From NCBI GenBank assembly GCA_016763255.1, contig JAESUA010000102.1:1-15637 (forward strand): a DNA stretch of 15,637 nucleotides, read 5' to 3'. This document shows positions 12,986 through 15,637 of this stretch, one piece after another. The first letter of the stretch is position 1, and each line of letters begins with the position of its first letter. The stretch is from Magnetovibrio sp. (GTDB lineage Bacteria > Pseudomonadota > Alphaproteobacteria > Rhodospirillales > Magnetovibrionaceae). The notes under the pieces were generated by a model. The model searched no databases, was not told the DNA's origin, and worked only from the letters and a program-made list of their open reading frames with translations. The position numbers and the translations under genes are program-made.

Positions 12986-13189
12986 GCGCCGGATTATGAC
13001 GTCAGTTGCCGCAAATCAAAACACTTACCGTACGCATTATGTTGAGAAACTTAAAATCTTGTGGGCTACGGCTGAATAGCCAAATTTCACGCACAAGGGG
13101 CGACATCAAACTTTCGGCACTTGCGAGATTTTTCCTGCTGTAGAGCCTGCACCGAGTCCTATATATCAAGAGGCAATGGAGAGCCTTTT

Positions 13190-13567
13190 ATGCATTGGCC
13201 GCATCAAGACAATGGCTGCGTGGATTGGGAATCTGTGTTTGATGATGAAGACACGGGCCTCACTGTGTATGCCGAACGCGCAAAAACCACGCAAGCCCTG
13301 GCACGCTGCGCCCATATGATTGTGCAAAGCCTGTTCATCCGTGACGACGACCCGCCCCATCGTGATGCCTATAATAACGCCATCCGTGAACTGGTCGCAT
13401 CTGAAGACGCGCACACCCGCGATAAACTTCTTCTCATGATCCAGGATATCAAGCTCGACCGTATTAAACGCTCAGGCCATGTTCTGAGCCAAGGTGATGG
13501 TGATGGTGAGCGTCGTCATGAGCAAAACGATCCAACAAAATCACTTAAAGTACTTCGCAAAAATTAA
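13190..13567 (+). CDS. Hypothetical soluble protein
   Basis: A 125-residue protein with no signal peptide or membrane segment and no domain I recognise. It is acidic at the N-terminus (DWESVFDDEDTGL), followed by probable helices (AERAKTTQALARCAHMIVQSLF, AYNNAIRELVAS, RDKLLLMIQDIKLDRIKRSG). Near the C-terminus is a run of GGTGAT hexamer repeats coding GDGDGE. GGAG at 13179-13182 supports the ATG at 13190; the open frame extends upstream to 13121 without a ribosome site. It is transcribed divergently from mazG and convergently with the YkgJ-type gene, with 20 bases between stops and no visible terminator. Coding is supported by the ribosome site and gene-like composition rather than by family recognition. 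Confidence 0.65.
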   Translation: MHWPHQDNGCVDWESVFDDEDTGLTVYAERAKTTQALARCAHMIVQSLFIRDDDPPHRDAYNNAIRELVASEDAHTRDKLLLMIQDIKLDRIKRSGHVLSQGDGDGERRHEQNDPTKSLKVLRKN

Positions 13568-14380: not shown

Positions 14381-14869
14381 TCAGTTGGCGCCGCAGCACT
14401 TCTTGAACTTTTTACCCGAGCCACAAGGGCAGGGATCGTTGCGCCCGACCTTGTCGATGCGCCGTGGTTCAATCTGCGGATTGATTTTGCCATCCACATA
14501 GACCCAGTCACCGTTTTCACGGCGAAAATCGGAGCGTTCGCGGTGGGCATGCATTTCGCCGTTTTCTTCAAATCGGGCGGTAAAGGTCACCGTGCCGATC
14601 TCATCATCGGGCCCGCCATCAATCGTTTCGGTGATCTCCAAACCAACCCATTTGGTTTTTTTGGATTGGGCTTTGGCGGCCGACACATTGTAAGACGCCT
14701 GGGCTTCCGGGGCATGGGTGTTGGCGACATGCTCGAAGTTGCCTTTGACGTGCGCGGTGTAGCGCGAGCGCATCAAAGCTTCAGCCGTATCGGACTTGAC
14801 CGATCCATCAAGGATCGGGCCACAGCAGGTGTCAAAATCTTTGCCGGAATTACAGGGGCAGGTGGTCAT
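14381..14869 (-). CDS. ychJ: YchJ-family protein with SEC-C motifs at both ends
   Basis: A 162-residue protein of the YchJ/UPF0225 type; the function is unknown. The N-terminus has [13 protein letters not shown] and the C-terminus [15 protein letters not shown], both SEC-C zinc-binding motifs, flanking a small NTF2-like domain that contains the family signature [10 protein letters not shown] and the stretch [10 protein letters not shown]. The frame runs up to an ATG at 14893, but no ribosome site precedes that codon and family members start just ahead of the first CPC, so the ATG at 14869 is chosen; AAAGAG lies about ten bases ahead of it. It heads the pair with the YkgJ-type gene. A 322-residue plus-strand open frame lies antisense to both genes and is a shadow. 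Confidence 0.9.
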
Positions 14870-15041
14870 GGTTGGGAACTCTTTCGATCTCATAAAACGG
14901 TCAAATCAATGCGTGGCTAATCTAGTCGTATGAACGGCGAAGAACAATGGTGTTGGAAAACATCACCAGGTTCGATAAGCGCCGCATGTGCACTTGCGTG
15001 TGATGGAGTATGGAATTACTATTTCAACCATGGAGATTTTG

Positions 15042-15254
15042 ATGGAATTTATCTTTGAAATTGTCTTATGGCTTTTTTGGCCAAAAGGCAAAGATGCGTT
15101 TGGTAAAACCGCAATCCTTTCATTTTGGGTATTGCTGTTCGTCGCGACAGCTTTGGCCTTCACCAATCAATACATTCCAGCCATCGGATTTGTAGTCGCC
15201 GCAATTTTTGCTTTCTTTCTTGCTTCACGACATTCGAAAAGTGAACAGAGTTAA
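15042..15254 (+). CDS. Small membrane protein, two predicted helices
   Basis: A 70-residue protein (from ATG 15042) with a hydrophobic N-terminal patch (FIFEIVLWLFW), then TM segments AILSFWVLLFVATALAF and AIGFVVAAIFAFFLA, ending in the polar tail RHSKSEQS. GGAG at 15032-15035, six bases ahead, favours 15042 over in-frame starts at 14988 (GTG), 15003 and 15030. No family is recognised. Its composition is more AT-rich than the genes to its left. Its stop is 4 bases from the stop of the minus-strand phage-like gene. It could be a host membrane protein of unknown role or part of a mobile element. The upstream gap 14870-15041 should contain divergent promoters for this gene and ychJ; I could not define them. 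Confidence 0.6.
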   Translation: MEFIFEIVLWLFWPKGKDAFGKTAILSFWVLLFVATALAFTNQYIPAIGFVVAAIFAFFLASRHSKSEQS

Positions 15255-15258
15255 TTTT

Positions 15259-15637
15259 CTATCGAAAGGTAGCGATAAGGAACACCACACTTATCGCATA
15301 ATGTATAGTCTGGTTAGATTGCGTTGTGATTTGTTCACCCAACGTTCGTGCGCGTGCATCCGGCGCGGCAAGTAACGTCAGAAGTAAAAGCGCAATCACC
15401 GCAGGGCCTTTACTGGACTTATGCATCGCCTTTAGGGCGGTTTCCCATATCCCAGCAACGACGTCTTGTTTGCGTTTCTTGGCTTCCCAATAAGAGAGCC
15501 AAGTTAAAGCTTCTGTGTGATCCATGCCGATCATGTCGGCTAGAAGCAGTATTCTATCTGAGGATGGGAGGACACCATCGCGGCGCATCTTGGATACAAT
15601 TTGACCACTGTAGCCTAATGCATTGTTGAGCTTGCGA
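15259..15637 (-). CDS. DUF3693-like filamentous-phage protein, 5' end outside window
   Basis: The frame is open from the window edge (first full codon 15636-15634) to TAG at 15261-15259, 125 residues seen. The N-terminal part, KLNNALGYSGQIVSKMRRDG followed by LPSSDRILLLADMIGMDHTEALTWL, has the shape of a phage-type helix-turn-helix unit (A-L-G-S-V-S and L-A-G-D spacing). A charged linker and IWETALKAM follow, then one membrane helix (PAVIALLLLTLLAAP) and a short tail. From family knowledge this layout, HTH-like domain plus a single C-terminal TM helix, is that of DUF3693 proteins of inoviruses (Xanthomonas and Ralstonia relatives). The tail (QTIHYAISVVFLIATFR) covers a dif-like core. Family assignment is by pattern, not by search. 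Confidence 0.6.
   Translation of the reverse strand, partial: RKLNNALGYSGQIVSKMRRDGVLPSSDRILLLADMIGMDHTEALTWLSYWEAKKRKQDVVAGIWETALKAMHKSSKGPAVIALLLLTLLAAPDARARTLGEQITTQSNQTIHYAISVVFLIATFR
15272..15297. repeat. 8-base inverted repeat beside the dif-like core
   Basis: GCGATAAG (15272-15279) and CTTATCGC (15290-15297) are exact complements with 10 bases between. There is no T run on either side, so a terminator is unlikely. The right arm overlaps the first bases of the dif-like match. Confidence 0.6.
15291..15318. other. dif-like XerC/XerD site candidate
   Basis: CGCATAATGTATA (15295-15307) equals 13 consecutive bases of the E. coli dif site: most of the XerC arm (CGCATAA) and the whole central hexamer TGTATA. 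The XerD arm is poor: 15308-15318 matches 5 of 11 ungapped, or 8 of 11 if one extra G is allowed. A good XerC side and degenerate XerD side is known for phage-type attachment sites. It lies inside the 3' end of the phage-like gene. Chance cannot be excluded. Confidence 0.4.

Follow-up and report, generated by a model that had tools for sequence, protein, structure and literature searches.

The window analysed here is a stretch of 15,637 nucleotides that makes up an entire contig (C31) in a Magnetovibrio draft genome (G000) of 2.71 Mb, 425 contigs and 67% completeness. At its right end, a gene for a YchJ-like protein is followed by a dif site and by a reading frame that crosses this site. The features are as follows.

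14381..14893, minus strand: host YchJ-like (SEC-C) gene, located on the XerC side of dif in the genus (PF17775, E 1.4e-29; PF02810)
14988..15254, plus strand: orphan hydrophobic ORF of 88 amino acids on the host side, between YchJ and dif, with no family match over the cut-off
15259..15636, minus strand: predicted phage regulator ORF (phrog_638, E 2.2e-8) of 125 amino acids, truncated on its 5' side where the contig stops
15272..15297, plus strand: inverted repeat GCGATAAG/CTTATCGC of 8 bp with a loop of 10, overlapping the XerC arm (fold z -2.9)
15291..15318, plus strand: attL-type hybrid dif site of 28 bp, 22/28 identical to the dif of the genus, the left 17/17 identical and the right arm diverged
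15291..15301, plus strand: host-derived XerC arm, TTATCGCATAA, the same as in G002, G003 and G007
15302..15307, plus strand: central region TGTATA, where strand exchange takes place, the same in 10 of 13 aligned family dif sites
15308..15318, plus strand: degenerate, element-derived XerD arm, GTCTGGTTAGA, identical to TTATGGAAAAT at 5/11 positions
15308..15637, no strand assigned: sole assembled part of the inserted element, ending with the contig at 15637

The XerC and XerD arms are named according to the E. coli dif layout. The first-pass annotation had reported 13 bases identical to the dif core at positions 15295-15307, and this observation holds. The pattern search found CGCATAATGTATA at this position with no mismatch and nowhere else as an exact copy in the 2.71-Mb draft, where 0.05 exact matches to the 13-mer would be expected (0.0003 in the window). 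The identity extends to 17 of 17 positions (15291-15307) in comparison with the dif sites of G003, G002 and G007, as seen in an alignment of 13 dif sites from the family, and the dif of five congeners reads CGCATAAT(G/T)TATATTATGGAAA. When up to two mismatches were allowed, the window contained one match versus 0.18 expected, and since 34 of 200 shuffled sequences reached one match, this looser test says little taken alone. The draft contains another 25 such matches, all with two mismatches, which are background, as the total of 26 compares with 22 for a reversed control pattern. A degenerate dif pattern run on 60 genomes, the draft and 59 relatives, matched in 52, background included.

The identification of 15295-15307 as the host's dif is based on synteny and orientation. 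The YchJ ortholog and dif are located on one contig in four of the five congeners (G001, G003, G004 and G005), in the same orientation as in the window and at distances of 0.2 to 3.4 kb, compared to 0.4 kb in the window; in the fifth, G002, YchJ is on a contig other than that of dif. Five genes are arranged in the same order up to dif in the window and in G004, and the pairing of YchJ with dif was not found in family genomes outside the genus. The stretch at 15272-15297 folds more stably than expected, with none of 200 shuffled sequences folding equally well, and its 8-bp inverted repeat mirrors the XerC arm in part; at the sites of 13 relatives the longest such repeat is 0-6 bp.

A BLAST comparison of the 88-aa ORF between YchJ and dif with 13 loci around dif from 12 relatives gave no match at E ≤ 1e-6, and the best profile matches of the ORF, to MIGRI (E 0.009) and to the holin family phrog_1129 (E 0.03), are below the cut-off. 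It is placed in a stretch of low GC content, with 41.5% G+C at 14900-15258 versus 54% in the preceding sequence. Further upstream, a 148-aa ORF at 13121-13567, one of three window proteins scanned with PADLOC, gave a weak partial match to DndH (E 2e-4) that is probably not meaningful.

To the right of the central region, the similarity to the family is lost. The XerD arm of the window is identical to TTATGGAAAAT at only 5 of 11 positions, and TTATGGAAAAT is carried by all 13 dif sites found in 12 family genomes. The pattern used to collect these sites gives preference to those whose right arm is intact, and five family genomes yielded none. Both dif and a gene for an MBL-fold protein were found in 12 family genomes, and in 11 of them, all except G004, the gene follows on the right of dif at no more than 0.6 kb. 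The distance is only 65-136 bp in four congeners without an insert (G001, G002, G003 and G005), and the gene is absent from the 330 bp beyond the junction here. The gene has no match in the draft, and its absence is weak evidence given the 67% completeness and the lack of a match in three more of the 18 drafts searched. The fully conserved left half, the diverged XerD arm and the missing MBL-fold gene fit an attL-type junction, in which the arm on the side of the element has been replaced. Foreign sequence starts at dif, and the reading frame that crosses it is chimeric. It is thus very probable that an element is integrated at the dif site of the host and that the window contains its left edge, of which about 330 bp were assembled. 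No DNA match to the region 15259-15637 was found in phages, and the att string is absent from viral_contigs. When the 67% complete draft was searched for a second att site with up to two mismatches, three matches resembling background and no credible dif were obtained.

The protein encoded across the junction matches phrog_638, annotated as a transcriptional regulator, over residues 2-114, which reach the dif core. The match covers positions 22-129 of the 145 in the profile and is near full-length, the N-terminus of the protein being cut off, and a second match was obtained to phrog_4441 (E 3.4e-5). The dif centre corresponds to residues 110-112, the reading frame is open up to and through the junction, and residues 112-125 are host-encoded, in agreement with the previous suggestion that the last dozen or so residues would be read from host DNA. 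A hydrophobic segment spans residues 78-96, in agreement with the family layout of an N-terminal HTH and a C-terminal hydrophobic segment. A structure model inferred from eight sequences contains helices only, with a low mean pLDDT of 60, and the identity to eight regulators from prophages and phages is 22-34%.

The protein had also been likened in its layout to inovirus proteins with the DUF3693 domain, and this stands as a resemblance only. No match to any Pfam or NCBIfam family was found at E ≤ 1, and hence none to PF12472 (DUF3693). As positive controls, six gammaproteobacterial inovirus regulators, including two near-identical ones from Vibrio, matched PF12472. Taken together, DUF3693 matches six of the seven inovirus-type regulators scanned (the two from Vibrio, SMA6, XacF1, Cf2 and VGJ, not that of G288) and none of the five regulators from double-jelly-roll phages. 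The profile matches place the protein with the phage regulators of phrog_638 and outside the inovirus regulators with DUF3693. Relatives of the protein were found neither in viral_contigs nor in genome_contigs; an alignment of three relatives retrieved three loci from genome_contigs and none from viral_contigs. A tblastn search in phages returned five records only (E 0.1), all from Vibrio, the two examined being inoviruses, and a sequence search in the PDB gave nothing at E ≤ 1.

To place the junction in context, we searched for phrog_638 genes in 317 genomes of the order. A match at E ≤ 1e-3 was obtained in 167 of them, many through short HTH stretches, and since 10 of 14 control genomes also matched, only strong matches were counted. 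Twenty loci were taken, and gene contents were compared in 12 of these (L129-L140), besides G004 and four loci obtained by searching the genomes of the class with the window protein, where 5 of 385 matched, the draft included. The other eight loci (L141-L148) were scanned for dif only, and no match was found at ≤ 9 mismatches.

The closest parallel is an 11.4-kb insert at dif in G004 (C67, about 49340-60823; L074/L128), which is apparently a complete tailless double-jelly-roll provirus. It encodes a PM2-type coat protein P2 (PF18628, E 1e-27; PF25513, E 5e-24), a packaging-type ATPase (phrog_2666, E 2e-7) for which the match to Zot in Pfam is below the cut-off (E 0.07), and a cell-wall hydrolase (PF07486). 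SleB-type hydrolases are described as typical of alphaproteobacterial Vinavirales (PMC9502842). The insert ends with the phrog_638 gene, whose reading frame continues across the right half-dif and enters the chromosome immediately ahead of the MBL-fold gene. The G004 provirus thus resembles the window in genus, in the dif site used and in having a phrog_638 gene that continues through a half-dif into the chromosome. The two differ in that the regulator of G004 is located at the side of the MBL-fold gene (the right att), with the XerD half kept, whereas the window has its regulator at the YchJ side, with the XerC half kept, such that the insertion is reversed. At the left site of G004 the frame stays open for another 25 residues, which suggests what the tail of the regulator would be in the circular phage.

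Similar gene sets were observed elsewhere. Matches to the coat protein and the ATPase share a stretch with phrog_638 in G066, G279, G033, G224 and G384, the last two with a fragment of the coat gene. The same is true of a prophage in Kiloniella spongiae (NZ_LAQL01000004, L155), where a P2-type coat protein and a packaging ATPase were identified by phmmer beside a phrog_638-type gene with a half-dif; unlike in the window, the element is visible and the opposite att half, the XerD half, is kept (17/17). A gene of the Zot family adjoins phrog_638 in G288 and G290 (L130 and L131) and in G193 (L139), all from the same alphaproteobacterial order as the window, and L130 also encodes a G2P-type replication protein. 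An inovirus in this bacterial order would therefore not be without precedent, and Alphaproteobacteria are also named in the legend to the host figure of a 2019 inovirus survey (PMC6813254). At the G131, G016, G085 and G685 loci, the regulator is located at a half-dif, and no match to a coat protein, packaging ATPase or Zot was found in the stretch read.

Among the alphaproteobacterial phrog_638 loci that could be typed and have a half-dif of at least 14/17, five are of the double-jelly-roll type (G004, G066, G279, G033 and Kiloniella spongiae) and one is of the inovirus type (G288), with two of the six (G279 and G288) matching at only 14/17. The count omits untyped loci, loci below 14/17 (G224 with 13 and G384 with 12 of the double-jelly-roll type, and G193 with 10 of the inovirus type) and G290, for which the Zot and replication genes score as those of G288 and which has no half-dif score. 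Of 1500 random 400-bp windows taken from these loci, 55 reach at least 14/17, including 26 at 17/17, true sites included. The central region and XerD arm are kept (17/17) in G004, Kiloniella, G066, G131 and G685, and the XerC arm and central region in the window (17/17), G033 (15/17) and G085 (16/17). In the inoviruses, the XerC half is kept in XacF1 and phiLf, and the XerD half in Cf2 and G288. Both halves occur in inoviruses, and the att orientation is therefore uninformative about the phage type.

Sequence comparisons lean weakly toward a double-jelly-roll phage. The window protein scored 41.5 bits on a profile of six double-jelly-roll proteins and 32.8 bits on a profile of 13 inovirus proteins, five of which are IMG/VR relatives of SMA6 (5 of 15 loci) that were classed by similarity. 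The margin of +8.7 is just under that of the lowest known double-jelly-roll member, the leave-one-out margins being +10.5 to +64.8 for the six and -136 to -13 for the 13 inovirus proteins. Six of seven untyped proteins scored on the double-jelly-roll side (+31 to +70). The seventh, from the 4.6-kb contig of G011, which encodes a transglycosylase and neither Zot nor coat, fell on the inovirus side (-15.8), which means that classification by the profile is not safe. In a phylogeny, which like the profiles leaves out the regulators of G193 (short and divergent) and Kiloniella, the nodes adjoining the window protein have 23-37% support, and the protein is placed outside the inovirus clade, which includes G011 (UFBoot 80). 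With phmmer, it is closest to G131 (untyped), G066 and G279 among the first 12 loci and G004, and to G551 and G685 (both untyped) and G384 in the class-wide set.

Searches of the 67% complete draft for phage genes are weak evidence against either type. The best match to Zot (E 0.6, on C283) was rejected as below the cut-off, and no match to the P2-type coat protein (PF18628) was found. The best match of a packaging-ATPase profile of five sequences, on C82, was rejected, as its sequence and the host genes beside it identify it as the host FtsK; five weaker matches followed (E 0.008-0.23).

Given an integrated element, we consider that it is probably a tailless double-jelly-roll phage (order Vinavirales, PM2/Jorvik-like), an inovirus being the clearly less likely type. 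Overall, we assign a probability of roughly 0.6 to the reading that the junction belongs to a temperate phage at dif that is more likely of the tailless double-jelly-roll type than an inovirus.

The main alternative is the one originally proposed, a dif-integrated inovirus (Tubulavirales) with the genes for Zot, the replication protein and the coat to the right of the contig end. Such an element would have its attP in a gene homologous to those of XacF1, Cf2, phiLf and VGJ, in the orientation seen in XacF1 and phiLf, and the sets of Zot and phrog_638 genes in G288/G290 and G193 come from the same order; moreover, forcing the window protein into the inoviruses costs 7.4 log units, which is not significant (AU test, p 0.143). 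Against this, PF12472 matches the six gammaproteobacterial inovirus regulators and not the window protein, albeit it also misses that of G288, the profile scores lean the opposite way, the inovirus clade excludes the protein, no Zot was found above the cut-off in the incomplete draft, and only one of the six typed alphaproteobacterial loci is of this type. Tailless double-jelly-roll phages likewise combine the regulator with dif, and one such phage occupies the same dif in a congener. The assignment to an inovirus is thus not upheld as it was stated and appears unlikely, and the regulator by itself is not enough to identify such an edge as that of an inovirus.

It is improbable that the element is not a phage or is a decayed one, such as a remnant, satellite or cassette that targets dif and has kept a phage regulator at its edge. 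Only 330 bp are seen, and the stretches read around the half-dif regulators in G131, G016, G085 and G685 likewise gave no coat, packaging-ATPase or Zot match, but the reading frame continues uninterrupted to the junction and across it, and capsid-type or Zot genes, which served for the typing, are present at all six typed half-dif loci. A reading without any insertion, in which a resident regulator adjoins a native dif whose right arm has diverged, or in which the contig is mis-joined, is very improbable: the contig ends shortly past a single junction and the dif sites compared came from a pattern biased toward intact right arms, but the right arm is kept at all 13 family sites, the MBL-fold gene is missing from where the insert-free congeners have it, and the break coincides with the region of strand exchange and is followed by a gene of a phage family.

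If the junction belongs to a small temperate phage, its attP would be placed inside the 3' part of the regulator gene and would have recombined with the host dif, most likely by means of the host XerC and XerD, as the use of a dif site suggests. Recombination would leave a hybrid site with the XerC arm and centre from the host and the XerD arm from the phage. The last residues of the regulator would be exchanged for host-encoded ones, and the DNA-binding part would remain on phage DNA. By analogy with ORF12 of XacF1 and the immunity determinant of Cf, the regulator may keep the prophage repressed and stably integrated. In XacF1, attP lies within ORF12, which is split on integration, the integrated state is unstable when most of ORF12 is deleted, and the ORF12 region corresponds to the primary immunity determinant of Cf (PMC5666396). 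The records of Cf2, phiLf and VGJ annotate attP inside the regulator gene, and that of VEJ has the annotated att 3' of the annotated regulator ORF. The window is like XacF1 and Cf in that attP, with a CGCATAATGTATAG core, is inside the 3' part of a regulator gene of the phrog_638 type, in that the XerC half is conserved and located on the strand opposite to the gene, and in that integration at dif splits the ORF. It is unlike XacF1 in that the XacF1 regulator contains DUF3693, which the window protein does not, and in that the body of the phage is outside the assembly.

Integration by XerCD has also been proposed for tailless phages, namely the Jorvik-like phages of alphaproteobacteria (Vinavirales) and Vibrio phage NO16 (PMC10589892, PMC9966536). 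Their att sites resemble dif, as does that of the window, and Jorvik is described as having no predicted integrase (PMC10589892, PMC9966536). In contrast to the window, where only an edge without capsid genes was assembled, the sequenced lysogens carry Jorvik in the RuBisCO operon (PMC10589892). In a study of Vibrio, all of its filamentous prophages and a few tailless ones were located at dif, the use of host recombinases by the tailless ones is left open, and a gene often annotated as a transcriptional regulator flanks a hotspot of accessory genes near the prophage borders (PMC11630473). Inoviruses and tailless phages integrated at dif, as well as attP in an inovirus regulator, are thus already in print. 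In the open-licence literature, we found no statement that a gene combining regulator and attP is common to inoviruses and double-jelly-roll phages, and no paper for the term DUF3693.

Since integration at dif swaps the C-terminal tail of the regulator past its hydrophobic segment, the protein would come in a 'free' and an 'integrated' form. A speculative and rather doubtful extension is that filamentous ssDNA phages and tailless dsDNA phages, which belong to different realms, share a portable lysogeny module consisting of the phrog_638 gene and the attP embedded in it, and that the two protein forms could serve as a switch by which integration is reported. If the swap of the tail matters, integration and phage repression would be linked in a simple way that can be tested. 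The comparisons show the dif site as a single chromosomal site contested by unrelated small phages with the same kind of regulator-plus-attP gene.

Other features of the dif sites in the relatives were also observed. A conserved block is located immediately to the left of dif in L073, L076, L079, L083 and L090 (G003, G001, G006, G008 and G015), and contains the inverted repeat GTTCCCGTGAACAGAACGGGAAAC in most copies; it is absent from the window and the other sites compared, and could represent either an accessory Xer site or the terminus of a further element that targets dif. In G033, both arms of the second site resemble dif (15/17 and 13/17), consistent with the retention of a working dif. 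More than one good copy of dif per genome was identified in G031 (three contigs) and in G015 (C27 and C154), as expected after integration at dif.
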